This document shows, in pieces, positions 8,116 through 24,641 of a stretch of 24,641 bases of DNA. How positions within the stretch are numbered: position 1 is the stretch's first letter; each line of letters begins with the position of its first letter. Made by a program: the position numbers and the translations under genes. The notes beneath the pieces are model-generated. The model saw only the letters and a list, made by a program, of their open reading frames with translations, did no database searches and was not told the DNA's origin. This DNA comes from a virus: positions 1 to 24,641 of IMG/VR virus record IMGVR_UViG_3300010332_000111; one strand, 5' to 3'.

Positions 8116-8457
8116 ATGGCTAAATTTGCGGGAACAGGTGGTGGACTGGAAGGCACAATAAAGACAGTTGACCTTCCAGCAGCTGGCTCACCACCTTCGA
8201 CAGTAGCGGAAATTGATTTGAGTGATAAGCCGACTGTGACACTCGTGAATATTGTAATTTTCGGCGAGGCATACATGGCCTATGCTGCTGATTCAGCGAC
8301 TGTGAAATCGAATCTGGGAAGTGATTCAACTAGGCAGCGGTTAGCTGGTAATGCCGCGTATTCAATCCCGGTTGGGAGCAATGCGGGTGTCCTGGCGTTC
8401 ACTTCGGCGAGCACGGCTGTGACGGATGGTCTAAGTTACCATTTGGTGGAGACTTAG
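8116..8457 (+). CDS. Small probable virion protein, unrecognised
   Basis: 113 residues, low in charge, rich in Ala, Ser, Thr, Gly and Val, with no signal peptide or membrane helix. The composition and predicted beta content (PTVTLVNIVIFGEAYMAY, AVTDGLSYHLVET) are typical of small capsid or neck structural proteins. AGGAGC lies a proper distance before the ATG. It sits between the connector candidate and the carbohydrate-binding-like protein, 2 bases before the tiny gene at 8460. No function can be assigned. Confidence 0.55.
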   Translation: MAKFAGTGGGLEGTIKTVDLPAAGSPPSTVAEIDLSDKPTVTLVNIVIFGEAYMAYAADSATVKSNLGSDSTRQRLAGNAAYSIPVGSNAGVLAFTSASTAVTDGLSYHLVET

Positions 8458-16633: not shown

Positions 16634-17245
16634 GGCCATATCCCAGGCCCTCCGGTCAACGAAGATTACACAATCCTAGTAGAGGTTCAATCCTCAGAAA
16701 ACGGAATTGTTACGGGTAAGAAACTATGGGATGCTTCGCAGAATCCTAAGTTATTCTACGCGAAGCTCTTGTGGTATGGGCGAAATGGCGATCCTCCGGA
16801 TGGGATTCTTAAGGCCGGCCAAATTGCGCTGTTCCACCGGTGTGGAGACTTCAATTCCCAGGGGACTGAAGGGCCTGAGCGCCATGTTGAGGCCGCTGAA
16901 AAGTATTCTTGGGTATGCTTCGCCCATGCGCAGTTGATTTTCGTTGAGGATTTAGGCGAGAGCTTAGGCCGAGAGGTGGCTTTCGACGAAACAGGTCAAA
17001 AACAAGTGCCTGCAGGCTCAGAGACGTTAAATTTGAAATTTATTGATACTACCTATTATGGCAGCCCGTCGAAAGCCGGGCGAATATACCTGGCCCAGCG
17101 AATTGAGGGCACTCCTAGCTATTATCTCTGCTTCGTGCCGGGCTACGGCGACGAAGCGGACAGCTTTTCGGTCACTGTGGGCTCAGACACCTTAGAAATT
17201 AAGGTGGACGGGGCAGGAAACGTCTTAGATTTTACGGTGTCCTGA
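16601..17245 (+). CDS. Attachment-domain protein, single-domain paralog
   Basis: 214 residues from the ATG that matches its paralog's start (in-frame ATGs at 16592 and 16595 add three residues). It is homologous end to end to residues 1-184 of the next protein. Both begin MKNTFT(L/V)GS(E/Q)YGHIPGPPVNEDY, both have a KLWD segment near 40, then K(A/T)GRIY, a PGY motif and a closing GNV(L/V)(D/E)F. The shared domain is beta-rich and probably fixes these proteins to the tail tip or forms a fibre base. The sequence ends here without an adhesin, so the protein may be an adaptor or a family member that lost its tip. The next gene starts within its stop (TGATG). Confidence 0.65.
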   Translation: MKNTFTLGSEYGHIPGPPVNEDYTILVEVQSSENGIVTGKKLWDASQNPKLFYAKLLWYGRNGDPPDGILKAGQIALFHRCGDFNSQGTEGPERHVEAAEKYSWVCFAHAQLIFVEDLGESLGREVAFDETGQKQVPAGSETLNLKFIDTTYYGSPSKAGRIYLAQRIEGTPSYYLCFVPGYGDEADSFSVTVGSDTLEIKVDGAGNVLDFTVS

Positions 17246-18726
17246 TGAAAAACACTTTCACTGTGGGTTCCCAATACGGCCATATCCCAGGGCCTCCGGT
17301 CAATGAGGATTACGCGATACTGATCGAGGTATCAAGCGCTAACAGCAGTTACGTTAAAGGCTATAAGCTATGGGACGTAGACAATTCATCGGAATTTATC
17401 GCTGAGAACAAACTTGGCAAAATCCCGGAAGTGGGAAGTAAAGTAATTTTCCATAGGACACCAAGCGGTTGGATATGCTTCCCTGAGAATACCCTCTGTT
17501 ATGTAGTAGATACGGGCGATTCAGGCGGCAATCGCGTCGGAAAACGGGGGAAATTTGATGCGTTTGGTAACTTCGTTACAATAGGCGATAATGTGCCGCT
17601 GGTGCCCTTTGACGCCAATTATCACCAAAATCAACCCCCTTGGAAGACCGGTAGAATCTATGCGGGCGTTGATTTTGGTAGCAAAGTATATGTGTATCTC
17701 CCAGGATACAGTGAAATCGTTGAATACAAAGGAATTACGCTCTCAGGCACTGATATTTCCTTGGCTCTGGATTACCAAGGAAACGTGGTTGAGTTCTTCC
17801 AGATATTTAATGATTTTTGGGAATATGATGGCCTAAACAACACTTGGACGCAATTGGCCTCTGGGCCACCAGCCCGTTGGGGGCACGTTAGTTGTTGGGT
17901 CACAAGCGGGCCGGTATACGTATTTGGGGGGTACGACAAAAACGGAAATAAGTTAAACGATCTTTGGAGATGGTCAACTTCAGGCGGCTGGGTTCAACTC
18001 GCCGACGCGCCTAAAAGGATGGCCGATTTTGGATGGTCTTGCGACGAATACCAAGGGGATACCTTGATGTCCTTTTGGGGGAGCACAGGCGAGTACCTAA
18101 TATATGGGCCAAACGATGATATCTGGTGCGAAGGAACTTCGCATCCTATTCAATCAAAATCGTGTTTCGGTGGATATGGATATTTTGCTTCGGGGAACGA
18201 AATCCGATATGACTTTATTGTGCCCTGGCAACCAATTACTTCAACACCAGGAGGGTGGCATTCGTATTACTATAATGATAGCACCGGAGAAACGGGCTGG
18301 CGGCAAGACCTATACTCCTTGGGCGGCGACCCTATCCCTGTCTACCGAAATGCCTTTTCCAAAAATGGGCGATATTGGATCGGAGGCAAAAAGCTGAACG
18401 ATGACTCGGTATGCGCCCAGATATATCTATTAGGTGATACCACAACCACAGGGACATTCTATACTGATTTGCCAACACCCGTATGGGGCGCGGCCTGCGA
18501 TCGGTTGGACATAGACGGGAACGAGTACGTTTTGATATTCGGAGGTGTAGACGGTAACGGAAATTTGCACGATGAGACGCTTTTCTTTTCGCCTAATTAC
18601 GATGCCGTCGTTGATATGGCACCCTCCTCAGCACCTGCAGCCCGCTGGGGTCACACTATCACTAATACGATTGTGATTTCGACTAACAGCTATCTGTTGT
18701 ACCTGTTCGGTGGGAGAGGAAAATAA
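17245..18726 (+). CDS. Attachment-domain protein with kelch-type beta-propeller tip
   Basis: 493 residues in two parts. Residues 1-184 are the same domain as the preceding 214-residue protein. Residues 185-493 are a kelch-like propeller: repeats include NDFWEYDGLNNTWTQL, then RWGHVSCWV with VYVFGGYDKNGNKLNDLWRW, VLIFGGVDGNGNLHDETLFF, and finally ARWGHT with LLYLFGGRGK. The chain starts with outer strands and ends with inner strands of a blade, so the termini probably close the ring ('velcro'). About five blades are seen, the middle ones degenerate. Propellers often bind glycans or proteins, so this is a candidate receptor-binding protein. It is coupled to both neighbours (TGATG, TAATG). Confidence 0.68.
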   Translation: MKNTFTVGSQYGHIPGPPVNEDYAILIEVSSANSSYVKGYKLWDVDNSSEFIAENKLGKIPEVGSKVIFHRTPSGWICFPENTLCYVVDTGDSGGNRVGKRGKFDAFGNFVTIGDNVPLVPFDANYHQNQPPWKTGRIYAGVDFGSKVYVYLPGYSEIVEYKGITLSGTDISLALDYQGNVVEFFQIFNDFWEYDGLNNTWTQLASGPPARWGHVSCWVTSGPVYVFGGYDKNGNKLNDLWRWSTSGGWVQLADAPKRMADFGWSCDEYQGDTLMSFWGSTGEYLIYGPNDDIWCEGTSHPIQSKSCFGGYGYFASGNEIRYDFIVPWQPITSTPGGWHSYYYNDSTGETGWRQDLYSLGGDPIPVYRNAFSKNGRYWIGGKKLNDDSVCAQIYLLGDTTTTGTFYTDLPTPVWGAACDRLDIDGNEYVLIFGGVDGNGNLHDETLFFSPNYDAVVDMAPSSAPAARWGHTITNTIVISTNSYLLYLFGGRGK

Positions 18727-19288: not shown

Positions 19289-19831
19289 ATGGAGAAAAAA
19301 AAAGAAGATGAATTCACTATGTCGGATGACGAAATTACCGACCAAGACCCAGGCGAACGTACCTATATCGTAGACTCTCGGCTATCCGACGAACAAGCCG
19401 TTGAGCGGATAATTGAATATGAGAGCCAGGTCAAACTCACTGAGACTACCCCTGAGCAGCGAAAGGCGGCGAAAGCCGTCAAGATAGAAAACCGTGGATT
19501 TTTCGTAACAACCCGCGATATAACAATAAACGTCGCAAAATCAACAGCCTTGGGCACTGCCAAGGGTGCTGTCAAAACGGTAGAAAATTTTGACGCCCTT
19601 CTAGGTGCGCTTTCCTACGGAATACTTGCCCATGCCTGGGAATGCTGGAGGGGAAATAATTATTTCGATGCCGCGATTTTCGGTCTCATAGGCGTTCTCT
19701 TGGTGATTGCCAAGCACAGGCTACCACCGGGCGGTTGGATTTCATTTCTGCGAAAACCAGTAATTGAAATGAAAAACGACGTGAGGCGGCTTGCAGTAGA
19801 CCTCTATAGTACTATTTCAGGGAAACATTGA
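19289..19831 (+). CDS. Two-helix membrane protein (holin or exclusion candidate)
   Basis: 180 residues. The first ~100 are charged and soluble, then two hydrophobic segments follow at about 102-120 (DALLGALSYGILAHAWECW) and 125-141 (YFDAAIFGLIGVLLVIA), separated by RGNN and followed by KHR. The last ~40 residues are soluble. The topology is compatible with a hairpin in the inner membrane with both ends inside. Holins have two or three such helices, but a 100-residue N-terminal domain is long for one, and no endolysin gene is found nearby. The gene has a GGGGGG-type Shine-Dalgarno and overlaps the kinase start (TGATG), so a role with the kinase is equally possible. Confidence 0.5.
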   Translation: MEKKKEDEFTMSDDEITDQDPGERTYIVDSRLSDEQAVERIIEYESQVKLTETTPEQRKAAKAVKIENRGFFVTTRDITINVAKSTALGTAKGAVKTVENFDALLGALSYGILAHAWECWRGNNYFDAAIFGLIGVLLVIAKHRLPPGGWISFLRKPVIEMKNDVRRLAVDLYSTISGKH

Positions 19832-21015
19832 TGGATAAATACACCTGGCACTTAGTACAGATTGCCAGGCTCAATAATAAAACGCTATTAGAATCGAATA
19901 GCGATATTGAATCACCGATAAGGGCCTGGGGTCGAGAGCTTATAAAAAGCGTATCGCCACCTCGTAATCCCAAGGGGGAAGATACTCCGGGAGCAGACCG
20001 ACGGTACGTATTTCGTCACTTCACGTATATTTCCCGAAGTTCTTTAATCTGCGTGGCTTACGACTATCAGCGAAAAGACGACGTTGTTTTCAAATTTTGC
20101 CTTCCGGCGGATCCACCCGCACAAGAGAAGAAGAAAAAGAAAACAACGTTCGTTAAGGCCCGGGAGTATGTGTTGAACGTCTATCGTGAGGGGCTGTCAA
20201 AGGCGAAACCTCATAAAAACGAAGACACCGAGCGATTCAAACGAGGGGTGCTAATCCAGCAGCAGCTACACGAAAAAATAAGAAAAAAGGGGCTCACAGA
20301 GCTATATGTGCCTGCGATATACGACTTCGTTCCTGGCGGAATTGAATATAAAAACCAGCTGTATTGCATTATGGAACTTATTGACGGACAAGGACTTATA
20401 GAATATTGCCGAGATCGAACAGACCAAGAGGTGATAGAACTGTTGTACTTGATTGCGCGGGGGCTAGAGAATATAGTTCATCGTTTTAACGTGGTGCATA
20501 GCGATATCAAGCCCGCAAACATTCTAGTATTGAACAAACGCCCAGTTCTCTTGGATTTCGGAATCTCAAGGGTGTGCCAACATGCGGAGCTAACTTCCCC
20601 GTCAACGCGTGGCCTAGGAACCCCTGCTTATTCGCCTGCCGAACAACTTGAGAATCCGCTGCAGCGGAGCTTTCGAGATGATATATTTGCGCTAGGCCGA
20701 ACATTCTGGGCCATGTGGGCCAGGCGGGAGCCAGACCTCAGTGACATTGTGATCGAAATAGGCTCCGATGGACGCGAAAAGTACTCAGATGAATCAACCC
20801 AGGCAGCTTTGCGCGCCAAATTCCCCTCGAATATTTTTCCACCCGAAGAACGCGAAATATTCGAGCGCGCTCATAACGCTAATCCAGCACTCAGATATGC
20901 GGACATCAGCGAGTTTAGACGAGATGTCGAATTGTTGAAACTTAAGAAATACAATACTTCCAGCGGAATCAACTGGATTCCCTATCTAACTAAATTAATG
21001 GAGATATGGCAATGA
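19831..21015 (+). CDS. Hanks-type Ser/Thr protein kinase, phage-encoded, divergent N-lobe
   Basis: 394 residues (ATG in TGATG overlap). The C-lobe is canonical: catalytic loop HSDIKPAN at 223-230 (Asp225, Lys227, Asn230), DFG at 242-244, activation-segment end GTPAYSPAEQ at 263-272 (the APE-like motif), FRDDIFALGR at 281-290, and a closing RYADISEFRRDVELL helix. In the N-lobe VVFKF (Lys88) fits the ATP-binding lysine. The preceding strand-turn (ISRSSLICVAYD) lacks a Gly-rich loop, and where the alphaC Glu is expected I read RFKRGVLI (Gly139). A 30-residue basic insert (EKKKKKTTF) follows Lys88. Phage kinases are known to modify host proteins or block other phages (Stk2 in staphylococci). Substrates are unknown; the neighbours are membrane and lipoproteins. 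Confidence 0.88.
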   Translation: MDKYTWHLVQIARLNNKTLLESNSDIESPIRAWGRELIKSVSPPRNPKGEDTPGADRRYVFRHFTYISRSSLICVAYDYQRKDDVVFKFCLPADPPAQEKKKKKTTFVKAREYVLNVYREGLSKAKPHKNEDTERFKRGVLIQQQLHEKIRKKGLTELYVPAIYDFVPGGIEYKNQLYCIMELIDGQGLIEYCRDRTDQEVIELLYLIARGLENIVHRFNVVHSDIKPANILVLNKRPVLLDFGISRVCQHAELTSPSTRGLGTPAYSPAEQLENPLQRSFRDDIFALGRTFWAMWARREPDLSDIVIEIGSDGREKYSDESTQAALRAKFPSNIFPPEEREIFERAHNANPALRYADISEFRRDVELLKLKKYNTSSGINWIPYLTKLMEIWQ

Positions 21016-21320: not shown

Positions 21321-21829
21321 GCTGGGGATCAATCACTGGTGGAACGGACTTTACGGGCAAGACTACAGATGATCTTGCCGAAGGCAGCACGAATAAATAC
21401 CTGGATTATCCTGATCAGGCAACGTGTTGGCATGACGAGGCCCAAGTCGAATCAGGAAACGCGCTATCTCGACTTGTGGATTCAACACAAGCTTATGGGG
21501 TTCAGGTGCGTCAGTCACCCCCCGCCAATGGCGATAAATTTAAACAGCAGGTTTTTCTGAAAGCAGGCACGTATGAGTTTCACGTGTTAGGGTACGAATC
21601 AACTGATCGCGGCATGATTGACTGGTCGCTTGACGGCACCAATTTCGCAACAGGGCAAGACTGGTATGATTCGTCATCGGCCGCTAACGTAGAAAAGACG
21701 GTGACTGGCATCACCGTATCTACGAGTGGGTATCACACACTCCAAGGAACGATTAATGGGAAGAACGCCTCTTCGAGTGATTACATGATGAGCCTTACGA
21801 AGTATTGGTTTATAAGGACAGGGGCATGA
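21317..21829 (+). CDS. Beta-rich virion or surface protein, unrecognised
   Basis: 170 residues without signal peptide, Gly/Ser/Thr/Asp-rich. Strand patterns such as QQVFLKAGTYEFHVLGYES, then DWSLDGTNFATG, then GYHTLQGTINGKN, suggest a small jelly-roll domain with the typical 'aGtY.f.v.g' and 'g.h.l' strands of phage fibre tips and carbohydrate-binding modules. It overlaps both neighbours by ATGA. It may be a virion ligand-binding protein or a fibre tip encoded apart from its stem. The start is set by an AAGGA site 6 bases upstream. Confidence 0.5.
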   Translation: MSWGSITGGTDFTGKTTDDLAEGSTNKYLDYPDQATCWHDEAQVESGNALSRLVDSTQAYGVQVRQSPPANGDKFKQQVFLKAGTYEFHVLGYESTDRGMIDWSLDGTNFATGQDWYDSSSAANVEKTVTGITVSTSGYHTLQGTINGKNASSSDYMMSLTKYWFIRTGA

Positions 21830-22782
21830 AATACTTGATTTTATTGAGTTGTGCGCTGTTGGTGGGTTGCCCAAAAGAGAGCAACTCACCATTAATGAAA
21901 ACTTGGAAATCTCGTGTCATGTATGCTTCCGTCGAAAACCAAGGAAAGCACTATATTATAGGCGGTTGGGACGGCAAAAACCTCTATAATGGCGTTTGGA
22001 CGTATAGTGATAGTGGACTGAAATATATTGGCCAGGCTCCCTGGGAGCCACGTTGTTATTTTTGCGCCGTCTCATTTCACGAGGAAATCTATATCTTTGG
22101 GGGCTATCACTACGGAGAGCCTAGTCACGTATATGGTGACATTTGGAAATCAAAGGATGGCGCGGTCTGGGAACTCCTCACAACCAACCCCAGCTGGGAA
22201 GCTAGGGAACACTACGGTGTTGTTGTATTCAATGATAAGATTTTCCTTTTTGGCGGGGTGACATATCTCAACCCGGTACCACCAAATAGCTTACGCGCCT
22301 TTAGTGATGTGTGGTGTAGTGACGATGGACTCAATTGGACATGCGTCAATTTCCGTGCGCCCTGGGGTGAGCGGCGCGGCTTCAGTTTTGGAGTGAAAGC
22401 AGGATACATCTGGCTCTGGGGTGGATGGGATTCGGCCGATAATTTATATAACGACGTGTGGAAATCCAAAGATGGCGCAACCTGGGAGCTGGTTGCTAAT
22501 ACGACCCCTTGGCGGCCACGCGGCAATTGCTACGGTTGTGTATGGCAAGACAAACTATGGGTATTCGGCGGATGCGTGTCAAAAGACGTGGAAACCTGTA
22601 ATGACGTGTGGTGCAGCGAGGACGGGATAATTTGGGAGAGAAAAGAAGACATGCCTGTTGCCCTGGCGGGTCAGAATCCTATTATTTATCCCGATAAGAT
22701 AGTGATTATTGGCGGGTTCTCATATGTGCCGGAAACAGTCTTTTATGATGACTGTTTTGTTTATGATGGTAGGTGGAGATAA
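21826..22782 (+). CDS. Kelch-repeat (beta-propeller) lipoprotein
   Basis: 318 residues from the ATG overlapping the previous stop. The N-terminus is a lipoprotein signal (MKYLILLSCALLVGC, lipobox LVGC at Cys15). Six kelch-type repeats of about 45-52 residues follow, with inner strands IIGGWDG, YIFGGYH, FLFGGV, WLWGGWD, WVFGGC and VIIGG. Most are followed by a DVW or DIW outer strand and KSKDG/CSEDG turns, and several are joined by PWEPR/SWEAR/PWRPR linkers. The protein should be a six-bladed propeller held at a membrane outside the cytoplasm. It is the last gene of the coupled run, ending beside a terminator. It may remodel the host surface, for example as a receptor mask or exclusion factor. 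Confidence 0.72.
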   Translation: MKYLILLSCALLVGCPKESNSPLMKTWKSRVMYASVENQGKHYIIGGWDGKNLYNGVWTYSDSGLKYIGQAPWEPRCYFCAVSFHEEIYIFGGYHYGEPSHVYGDIWKSKDGAVWELLTTNPSWEAREHYGVVVFNDKIFLFGGVTYLNPVPPNSLRAFSDVWCSDDGLNWTCVNFRAPWGERRGFSFGVKAGYIWLWGGWDSADNLYNDVWKSKDGATWELVANTTPWRPRGNCYGCVWQDKLWVFGGCVSKDVETCNDVWCSEDGIIWERKEDMPVALAGQNPIIYPDKIVIIGGFSYVPETVFYDDCFVYDGRWR

Positions 22783-22831: not shown

Positions 22832-23632
22832 TCAGCTATCAGCCTTTATTTGATCCAATACGCTCTCACACCATTTGATTTGCTGAATTGGCGTAAGCTT
22901 CTCTTTACCCGAAGGCCTTTTGGGTAACTTTACGTCCAAATAACGGCCCCATTTTTTCCCTTCTTCGGTCAAGCGCCATTGCTTGTCAACCTTATACTGG
23001 AGTCCATCTTCCGCCAGTAAAAGATTAACTTTTTGGGCACTTAAACCCCCAAGCTCTCTACCTAATTCAGTAGGAGTTAGCAACCGTTCTTGGGTGGTAG
23101 AAATCAGTGCCGTCGCACCAAAGGTTTCCAAAATGTCTATACCAAGAAGCTTTTCTATGGCATTTGATGCCGCTATCTTAGCATGAGCTCCCTCAAAACC
23201 AAGAAGCTCCGCAACCTTTATCGCTCCATCATAGATCGGAGCAAGTTTGGGCAGCTCATCCAAGCCTATTCTTCCAACATCCCCTGGTACACTGTAACGG
23301 CCTGTTTTTCTAATGGAAGGCAAAACCTCGGAAGTCACCCATTTGCGGAAAGCTTTCGCTTCTGGCTTGGTGGATTTAATGATTGCATGATAAAGGCCAG
23401 ACTCGTTGATGATGACGTAAGTCCTTGCGCCACCGCGACTTTTTGAAACCAACGCTGCGTTGGTTTCAAGTTTTTGCTGTTCGTCGTCATCCAATAATTT
23501 TGTCATAGCCCATGTTTCGCTATATCCCAAAATCGCAGCAATATCCTTGGCAACAAACCAGGGCTCGCCCTCGCGGTCAACGACCCTTATCTCACCAAAG
23601 TCTTGGTTGACAAAAATCTGCAAATTATCCAT
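22832..23632 (-). CDS. BRO-type phage antirepressor, with winged-helix-like C-terminus
   Basis: 266 residues on the - strand. Residues 1-111 are a BRO-N domain: FGEIRVVDREGEPWFVAKDIA, the ILGYSE turn, GGARTYVIINESGLYHAIIKS, then AFRKWVTSEVLPSIRKTG. After that comes a helical region (about 125-165) and a C-terminal DNA-binding-like part LLTPTELGRELGGLSAQKVN ... GLQYKVDKQWRLTEEGKKWGR seen in other phage regulators. BRO proteins of phages act as antirepressors or transcription regulators. AGGAG lies 6 bases before the ATG. Upstream is a structured leader with its own promoter (23764-23792). Its first ~20 residues are nearly identical to the next gene's, and the C-termini are unrelated. Confidence 0.85.
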   Translation of the reverse strand: MDNLQIFVNQDFGEIRVVDREGEPWFVAKDIAAILGYSETWAMTKLLDDDEQQKLETNAALVSKSRGGARTYVIINESGLYHAIIKSTKPEAKAFRKWVTSEVLPSIRKTGRYSVPGDVGRIGLDELPKLAPIYDGAIKVAELLGFEGAHAKIAASNAIEKLLGIDILETFGATALISTTQERLLTPTELGRELGGLSAQKVNLLLAEDGLQYKVDKQWRLTEEGKKWGRYLDVKLPKRPSGKEKLTPIQQIKWCESVLDQIKADS

Positions 23633-23635
23633 ATA

Positions 23636-23757
23636 TTACTCCTAATAAAAAAAGCCGGTGTCTGCCATCCCCAGGTGAGAATTGCCGCAAACCAAGGCTC
23701 AGGAAATGGCAGGCATCGGCTTTTTTCAGTTTGCTATTGGCTTCTCACGGCCAACAC
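23636..23757 (-). ncRNA. Structured leader RNA with terminator and pseudoknot potential, copy 1
   Basis: On the - strand, from the predicted start near 23757 to the Shine-Dalgarno at 23639-23643. A long hairpin pairs 23706-23726 with 23648-23668 (21 positions, two A-C mismatches) and is followed by seven U (23653-23647), which makes an intrinsic terminator just before the ribosome site. Near the RNA 5' end GTGAGAA (23742-23748) is complementary to TTCTCAC (23675-23681), and GCAAAC (23729-23734) to GTTTGC (23687-23692), both inside the hairpin loop. A GCC/GGC pair lies between them. These pairings cross the terminator stem. The loop core GAGCCTTGG and the following CACCTGGG are the same in copy 2. 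It could act in cis as an attenuator or in trans as a short RNA. Confidence 0.72.
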
Positions 23758-23763
23758 ATATAT

Positions 23764-23792
23764 AGTATAACAACATCTTTAGTAAATGTCAA
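23764..23792 (-). promoter_or_regulatory. Near-consensus sigma70 promoter for leader RNA and antirepressor
   Basis: On the - strand TTGACA (23787-23792) and TATACT (23764-23769) are separated by exactly 17 bases. The expected start lies about 7 bases downstream, close to 23757. The -35 box begins 3 bases after the stop of the second antirepressor gene. It fixes the orientation of the leader and gives the short antirepressor unit its own strong transcription. Confidence 0.85.
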
Positions 23793-23795
23793 GTC

Positions 23796-24518
23796 TTAAT
23801 TTTCCCGGAAAATATTATGCAGAACATCTAAATGATAGGTGTTTACTTCGCCGAAGCGGGGATCCGGAATTTTACCAATGGGGACATTCGCGGCTAAAGA
23901 TAACTTAGTGGCCTGCTTTCCAAGTTGGGCCGCCTCTTTAATAGTGATGCGCCTGTTTTTTAGATGAGCATAAGCCATAATTGAATAATAGCCAGATTGT
24001 CCCAGAACAGCGGCGGTTTTTGCCTGCAGTTCGCATATTTCCTGCGCATGACCGGCCTGGATTGCGGCCATTTTCCTCTGCTCTTCTTCCAAGGCCGCAT
24101 ATTGCTTAGCTATCTCTAAGGTTTCCTCGGCATATCTTACTAAAGGGTGTACCTTGGATTGTGAGTAGCTGCCTGTCTTTCTAATGGAAGGCAAAACCTC
24201 ATAGTATACCCAATCCTTAAATCTCTCTGCTTCCGGTTTCGTTGATCCAAAAATACACCGGTACAGGCCTGGCTCGGAGATGATGCTGTAAGTCCTTGCG
24301 CCACCGTGAGTTCTTGAAGGCTCATCTGAGGAGCCTTCAAGATCACCACAAGATATACTTATTTTTTCTTTATCTTTTAACAGTTTGAGCATATTTGAAG
24401 TTTTGTTATATCCCAAAATCGCAGCAACATCCTTGGCAACAAACCAGGGCTCGCCCTCGCGGATTACCACGCGAATCTCACCAAAGTCTTGGTTGACAAA
24501 AACCTGCAAATTATCCAT
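23796..24518 (-). CDS. BRO-type phage antirepressor, second paralog with different C-terminus
   Basis: 240 residues on the - strand. BRO-N at about 1-116: FGEIRVVIREGEPWFVAKDVA, ILGYNKTSN, GGARTYSIISEPGLYRCIFGS, then RFKDWVYYEVLPSIRKTG. Residues about 125-170 form a coiled-coil linker (YAEETLEIAKQYAALEEEQRKM). The C-terminal ~75 residues carry the antirepressor C-domain pattern GYYSIMAYAHLKNRRITIKEAAQLGKQATKLS ... PIGKIPDPRFGEVNTYHLDVL. Upstream sits the second leader copy with AGGAG (24525-24529) 6 bases before the ATG. Its promoter would lie beyond the window end. It shares a nearly identical 5' end with the neighbouring paralog. Confidence 0.86.
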   Translation of the reverse strand: MDNLQVFVNQDFGEIRVVIREGEPWFVAKDVAAILGYNKTSNMLKLLKDKEKISISCGDLEGSSDEPSRTHGGARTYSIISEPGLYRCIFGSTKPEAERFKDWVYYEVLPSIRKTGSYSQSKVHPLVRYAEETLEIAKQYAALEEEQRKMAAIQAGHAQEICELQAKTAAVLGQSGYYSIMAYAHLKNRRITIKEAAQLGKQATKLSLAANVPIGKIPDPRFGEVNTYHLDVLHNIFREN

Positions 24519-24523
24519 ATATT

Positions 24524-24641
24524 ACTCCTAATAAAAAAGCCGTTATTTTTCCGCCCAGGTGACAATTGCCCCAGACACCAAGGCTCTGAGCGGAAAAATA
24601 ACGGCTCTTTTGTGTCTGTTATCGGCTTGTCACGGCCAACA
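24524..24641 (-). ncRNA. Structured leader RNA, copy 2 (5' end cut by window edge)
   Basis: Same plan as copy 1. The terminator stem pairs 24590-24611 with 24533-24554 (22 positions, one G-U on this strand) and ends in six U. GTGACAA (24627-24633) is complementary to TTGTCAC (24559-24565), and CAGACAC (24612-24618) to GTGTCTG (24572-24578). Relative to copy 1, the G-C pair inside GTGAGAA/TTCTCAC is swapped to C-G, and both arms of the second helix and of the terminator stem have changed together. The core GAGCCTTGG, the GCC/GGC pair, the CACCTGGG after the first helix and the 5' TGTTGGCCGTGA are kept. Confidence 0.7.

Follow-up and report, generated by a model that had tools for sequence, protein, structure and literature searches.

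A family of phage leader RNAs with internally complementary arms precedes antirepressor, nuclease, and replication genes

INTRODUCTION

In phages P1, P7, and N15, the antirepressor is controlled by the C4 RNA, which carries its antisense arms inside its own stem and has its targets downstream, at the RBS. In P4, complementary segments of one transcript (the CI RNA with seqA and seqC) bring about premature termination before the replication genes; CI RNA is processed out of the transcript, pairs with targets on both sides, and acts in trans as a short RNA (PMC4825925). In the prophage Gifsy-1, a single promoter gives rise both to a short RNA, IsrK, that ends at a Rho-independent terminator and to a read-through antirepressor mRNA; the folds are mutually exclusive, and the short RNA targets its own mRNA (PMC4825925). 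Expression of T4-type homing endonucleases (mobE, I-TevI, seg43) is, or may be, limited by an RBS hairpin (PMC2988022).

Here, we describe a leader of ~115 nt that lies on the minus strand ahead of each of two BRO/antirepressor genes of a phage and that belongs to an RNA family without an entry in Rfam 15, whose members precede a wide range of phage genes. The family joins a small number of phage leader RNAs that carry antisense arms of their own.

RESULTS AND DISCUSSION

A duplicated structured leader precedes two antirepressor genes

The window, by which we mean the whole stretch of 24,641 nt analyzed, is a 24.6-kb virus record with Mu-like head genes (portal, gpT) on the plus strand and, at the right end, a tandem Bro-N/antirepressor gene pair read from the minus strand. 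Together with a BRO gene, the same leader pair is also present in QMOK01000024.1, from a Chloroflexi MAG (isolate B10_G9), and the window is from a phage of a Chloroflexi bacterium. Also on the plus strand of this Mu-like phage are genes for two Kelch-repeat proteins (17245-18726 and 21805-22782; several Pfam Kelch families above cut-off) and a serine/threonine protein kinase gene (19828-21015; Pfam Pkinase, E 4.5e-18; phrog_2361).

The original prediction had placed a duplicated structured RNA ahead of the two antirepressor genes, and both copies are indeed present on the minus strand (Table 1). From 5' to 3', each leader consists of a small hairpin (P1) with segment a' in its loop, the single-stranded segment b', the 5' strand of the terminator stem P2, a hairpin (P3) with segment b in its loop, the dinucleotide AA, segment a, the P2 3' strand, a U-run, AGGAG, and ATG. 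Segment a' is complementary to a, and b' to b, with b and a both lying within the P2 loop. In the window, the consensus of P1 is TTGGC-CGTGA(G/C)AA-GCC(A/G)A and that of segment a is TT(C/G)TCAC. The original prediction had missed that a' and b each occupy a hairpin loop, a' that of the small P1 and b that of P3; it did recognize the matched differences between copies: as read in the sequence, GTGAGAA/TTCTCAC (a'/a) becomes GTGACAA/TTGTCAC, GCAAAC/GTTTGC (b'/b) becomes CAGACAC/GTGTCTG, and the P2 stem is altered on both sides.

Both leaders fold much better than their dinucleotide shuffles, at -48.7 kcal/mol for copy 1 (z -4.0) and -52.3 kcal/mol for copy 2 (z -6.3), with 0 of 200 shuffles as good in either case. 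Crossed b'/b duplexes between the window copies reach -3.2 and -6.0 kcal/mol, compared with -9.0 and -10.9 kcal/mol for the cognate duplexes. The promoter named in the original prediction was found upstream of copy 1, while at copy 2 the contig stops before any promoter could be visible. A G+C-rich stem followed by a U-run lies between promoter and start codon in both window copies and in most members of the family described below, the U-run being unclear or weak in L193 and L231. The virus record (at 24641) and QMOK01000024.1 (at position 1) both terminate within leader copy 2, as would be expected if the repeat broke the assembly. Additional leader-BRO copies may exist past the contig end.

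Table 1. Positions of the leader elements, promoter, and antirepressor genes in the window
Feature	Position	Strand	Basis or remark
Leader copy 1	about 23756-23639	-	precedes ORF 22832-23632(-)
Leader copy 2	24641-24525	-	clipped by contig end; precedes ORF 23796-24518(-)
BRO/antirepressor gene 1, 266 aa	22832-23632	-	Pfam PF02498 Bro-N, E 1.1e-26; phrog_130 anti-repressor Ant, E 4e-52
BRO/antirepressor gene 2, 240 aa	23796-24518	-	Pfam PF02498 Bro-N, E 4.2e-25; phrog_130 anti-repressor Ant
Copy 1 promoter, sigma-70-type (TTGACA, 17 nt, TATACT, extended TG)	23764-23792	-	11/12 consensus matches
Copy 1 P1 hairpin, TTGGC-CGTGAGAA-GCCAA	23737-23754	-	sequence; a' in loop, 23742-23748
Copy 1 b', AGCAAACTG	23727-23735	-	core GCAAAC 23729-23734; pairing with P3 loop, -9.0 kcal/mol
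Copy 1 P2 intrinsic-terminator stem-loop	23654-23720	-	sequence, folding
Copy 1 P2 strands	5' 23702-23720; 3' 23654-23672	-	then U-run 23647-23653
Copy 1 P3 hairpin, GCC-TTGGTTTGC-GGC	23684-23698	-	b in loop; sequence, duplex energy
Copy 1 segment a, TTCTCAC	23675-23681	-	a' complement
Copy 1 Shine-Dalgarno AGGAG, BRO gene 1	23639-23643	-	sequence; directly 3' of U-run
Copy 2 P1 hairpin, TTGGC-CGTGACAA-GCCGA	24622-24639	-	sequence; a' in loop, 24627-24633
Copy 2 b', CAGACAC	24612-24618	-	pairing with P3 loop, -10.9 kcal/mol
Copy 2 P2 terminator stem-loop	24539-24607	-	sequence, folding; then U-run 24533-24538
Copy 2 P3 hairpin	24568-24584	-	b (GTGTCTG) in loop; sequence, duplex energy
Copy 2 segment a, TTGTCAC	24559-24565	-	sequence
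Copy 2 Shine-Dalgarno AGGAG, BRO gene 2	24525-24529	-	sequence

Homologous leaders occur in other phages

More than 30 distinct homologues in other phages are linked to the window leaders by a covariance model. The family was reached by scanning viral contigs for P1 plus segment a; BRO homology did not lead there, and the leader was absent from all 80 loci of the 80 best BRO relatives. With a model built from 11 sequences, most left-out members scored E values of 1e-7 to 1e-14 (L179 and L231 were weak), and the model-building check suggested with the original prediction thus recovered further copies with strong covariation. Members come from metagenomic phages of many samples, one Opitutales MAG (L242), and two cultured phages: Marinomonas phage P12026 (leader at 26404-26512, HNH gene at 26528) and Idiomarinaceae phage 1N2-2 (leader at 8278-8385, minus strand), in which the HNH gene lies antisense beside the capsid gene. 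A 7.3-kb query from 1N2-2 matched P12026 over 118 nt spanning the leader. Nearly every family phage carries a single copy.

Other searches bounded the family. By blastn, the window leader gave chance matches only against cultured phages. When one further base of a' was freed in the scan, no convincing new a' sequence was seen among the matches listed. A model search of the classes to which the Chloroflexi MAG (249 genomes) and the Opitutales MAG (188 genomes) belong returned true members only in the two starting genomes; among three weaker Chloroflexi matches, which were rejected, the two that were read out (L289 and L291) resemble ordinary terminators. The loop-core pattern GCCTTGG..GGCAA...TCACC occurred at 43 loci, none of which had the leader on inspection, and was attributed to chance, while reverse-strand model matches, which are due to P2 symmetry, were left out.

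Covariation supports RNA structure on the leader strand

Covariation between the two window copies had been put forward as evidence for RNA structure, a claim upheld by the family alignment. In 34 rows, fitted to P1-P3 and with a'.a treated as a pseudoknot, 94.0% of pair cells hold standard pairs, compared with 65.8% after shuffling and 34 to 42% in slid controls; these cells are not independent events, owing to relatedness within the largest group. The covariation score was 0.686, compared with 0.151 for shuffled alignments, and was reached by 0 of 500 shuffles. Every pair of P2 and P3 changes on both sides somewhere in the family, among them all 13 in the lower stem of P2, and P3 has four covarying pairs. 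The P1 core stem is paired in all 34 members, one of which is CG-swapped. In a'.a, six pairs are invariant and the seventh is AU in 16 members, GC in 12, UA in 4, and CG in 2, so that all 34 are matched. This agreement was not imposed by the search, since both letters were free in the main scan pattern; the exception is an earlier pattern with a fixed G/C at the variable pair.

The pairing b'.b is too variable for alignment and was tested by partner swapping among 28 non-redundant members. The mean energy was -6.85 kcal/mol for cognate and -2.75 kcal/mol for non-cognate partners, a difference matched in 0 of 50,000 permutations. We conclude that the pairing between the leader arms is not due to chance.

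At the DNA level, a'/a and b'/b are inverted repeats, and the leader is common to unrelated, maybe mobile, nuclease genes, as might be expected of an operator pair, transposon ends, or a recombination site. Such an element is very improbable in light of the wobble pairs: P2 and P3 contain 89 G-U cells and 5 A-C cells on the transcribed leader strand, an excess that argues for selection on RNA of the leader's own strand and not on DNA. The fixed register of promoter, U-run, and Shine-Dalgarno sequence and the free covariation of P2 and P3 also speak against it.

The leader is C4-like in logic and not a member of the C4 family

The original prediction had noted a C4-like logic and left the class undecided. 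The likeness is supported: as in C4, the leader transcript contains two short arms and, for each of them, a complementary segment, in a setting of phage antirepressor control. Membership of the C4 family (RF01695), or of another known Rfam family, would account for this shared logic and for the target gene type shared with the C4 RNAs of P1, P7, and N15, and yet we give it almost no credence. At E <= 1, the C4 model matched none of 8 family records, including the window phage, while among BRO-phage controls it matched 5 of 7, 4 of them above the cut-off and all with BRO-linked RNAs. Because the model fails on the family and works on these positive controls, the leader is not a C4 RNA. The arm order also differs, in that a' and b' lie 5' of P2 and their partners b and a in the terminator loop, and leader cargo is mostly not an antirepressor, the antirepressor link in the window being one of position. 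A search of Rfam 15, one of the checks proposed at the outset, gave no gathering match in the whole window nor to the leader in 13 homologous loci; at a relaxed cut-off (E <= 10), it gave chance-level miRNA-type matches only and no IsrK-type family. C4 RNAs do lie near the BRO genes of other phages (L008, L015, L059, L063, and L070), and two further loci (L011 and L072) look C4-like by eye and do not match the C4 model.

The other described systems each share part of the design. Like the P4 CI system, the leader RNA has complementary segments in its own transcript, but in the window leaders the intrinsic terminator is itself part of the pairing element. With IsrK the leaders share, as read from sequence layout, a promoter, a predicted short RNA, a Rho-independent terminator, and an antirepressor gene; IsrK, however, acts on translation of an upstream open reading frame, which the window leaders lack. 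The T4-type endonuclease hairpins are likewise stable RBS hairpins ahead of free-standing or intron endonuclease genes, but they are single hairpins, without paired arms or an intrinsic-terminator switch. A literature search covering few subscription journals found no description of the leader element.

Leaders precede genes of unrelated function

An association with antirepressor genes had also been predicted. It stands for both window copies, whereas specificity does not: an antirepressor-specific element is ruled out by the 80 other BRO loci without the leader together with the diverse cargo elsewhere, mostly nuclease and replication genes. Assigned by position throughout, the downstream genes encode, besides the BRO antirepressors of the window, HNH nucleases (L151, L177, L178, L180, L181, L189, L198, L211, and L256), O-like or primosomal replication proteins (L146, L185, L190, L201, and L204), GIY-YIG proteins (L182 and L196), an endonuclease VII-like protein (L231), and a PAPS reductase (L176). 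Leader similarity does not track gene similarity. The L180 and L256 leaders are 69% identical, yet between their proteins similarity is not significant (E 0.05); the L189 and L256 proteins share 32%. By eye, the same-strand upstream gene of several group-2 phages is RusA-type resolvase-like.

Compared with windows drawn at random from the same loci, promoter-like hexamers are enriched at the expected distance from P1 (Fisher combined p 1e-16, with related rows counted). The leader design is not bound to antirepressors and can be described as a ~110-nt module placed before unrelated genes (nucleases, replication starters, and antirepressors) whose silencing may matter to a phage.

A proposed attenuator with a possible role in trans

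The reading that we favor, and consider probable, is that each leader is a self-contained attenuator, an RNA gene with its own sigma-70 promoter, whose short product also acts in trans. Transcription would start at P1 and could end at the P2 intrinsic terminator, yielding an RNA of ~110 nt, with the RBS of the controlled gene following. Before the P2 3' strand has emerged, the nascent RNA would adopt a form with a'.a and b'.b paired and P1 open (the antiterminator); once that strand has emerged, P1 and P2 would form instead and transcription would stop. Read-through would produce the BRO mRNA and termination the short RNA, which would present a' and b in the loops of hairpins, with b' and a left single stranded. 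Through the same arms, the short RNA may bind a nascent leader of its own kind and shift the balance between termination and read-through, with the b'/b arm serving as a specificity tag that separates copies; the outcome would be feedback or immunity, as with C4, P4, or IsrK. The analysis establishes the anatomy and strand of the leaders, their family and its covariation, and where promoter and terminator lie; we infer the switching between folds and, above all, the trans action and its sign.

Equilibrium folding without pseudoknots, which carries no rate information, gave a'.a a mean probability of 0.76 and P1 0.02 in transcripts ending shortly after a, compared with 0.00 for a'.a and 0.89 for P1 in full-length transcripts. 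Pairing of a'.a early and of P1 late is the signature expected of an antiterminator competing with a terminator; in L198, L231, and L201, a'.a was never favored. Geometry points the same way for b'. The linker from b' to a fully paired P2 has at most 2 free nt in most of group 1 and none in the window copies, the rise of P2 is 62 to 73 A (~73 A in the window copies), and melting A-U pairs at the P2 base would supply only a few nt, suggesting that a single molecule cannot accommodate both b'.b and an intact P2. Folding and geometry together make cis switching by the leader likely and a trans role of the terminated RNA plausible. In a dozen or so members, a linker of 11 to 23 nt could permit a cis pseudoknot with P2 intact, and in group 2 the linker has the length needed for both pairings.

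The same fold competition is intramolecular and would suffice for a purely cis attenuator, in which the level of read-through, whether fixed or growth dependent, would follow from the arm pairings, the short RNA being a by-product that has no function in trans. Nearly all the phages being single-copy, cross-talk cannot be the general reason for b'/b divergence, and matched b'/b drift needs no trans partner. We regard this alternative as a live contender that is less probable than our reading, because the terminated fold exposes all four arms, with a' and b in the loops of conserved stems, a layout known from kissing antisense RNAs, and because drift has left the window copies with little ability to pair with each other.

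P1 and a' show more conservation than pairing requires, partly because the scans fixed both; recognition by a protein or ligand would be another explanation. A protein- or metabolite-sensing attenuator would have P1 with its loop CGUGANAA as the recognition element and the arm pairing as the expression platform. P1 is near-invariant even with its stem free in the scan (the sole variant being L256, CGG/CCG), 'AA' stands 5' of segment a in almost all members, and the same P1/a pair recurs in the Bacteroidota RNAs described below. We nevertheless consider sensing unlikely: the cargo genes share no common pathway or ligand as a riboswitch would suggest, a common host protein would need a very wide distribution across several host phyla, and part of the invariance of P1 and a' is by construction, since the scan patterns fixed most of both.

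If the arms of the attenuator we propose do work in trans, then through their matched divergence nature would have produced a series of RNA switches insulated from one another, and superinfection immunity would have a simple RNA basis. The occurrence of members in the sequenced cultured phages P12026 and 1N2-2 leaves the idea open to direct testing.

RNAs of similar arrangement in Bacteroidota

In Mucilaginibacter and family relatives (L234, L237, L239, L244, L383, and L384), RNAs with the same P1 have b' enclosed by a terminator-like stem. On these chromosomes, complementary b-AATTCTCAC copies lie both upstream and downstream, the downstream copy just 5' of the ATG, and in L239, where b' is altered, both of its partners are altered along with it. 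The cargo consists of small, often secreted-looking proteins, and an Rfam match is absent. The order recalls that of P4, in which seqA, CI, and seqC stand upstream, antisense, and downstream; this permuted, P4-like arrangement of sequence elements supports viewing P1/a plus b'/b as a possible reusable pairing module, be it through common descent or not.

More tentatively, these RNAs and the phage leaders may represent a new class of self-addressed RNA switches, in which the invariant P1 loop and a would form a shared docking module, the rapidly evolving b'/b arm would be a barcode, and each RNA would recognize its own kind, with an early-on/later-off use in phages and a permuted version in Mucilaginibacter. 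If so, antirepressors, replication initiators, or homing endonucleases would be on at entry and off once the short RNA accumulates, and the permuted form, in which an antisense hairpin with its terminator stands between one target and another located at the start codon, would serve Mucilaginibacter chromosomal genes.

A longer structured RNA of ~150 to 180 nt (L232, L233, L235, L236, and L240), with no Rfam match above threshold, has the same GGCCGTGAGAAGCC hairpin and AAATTCTCACGTT. It occurs, almost always as one motif copy per genome, in Alloprevotella, Chitinophaga, Pedobacter, Sphingobacterium, and a rumen MAG.
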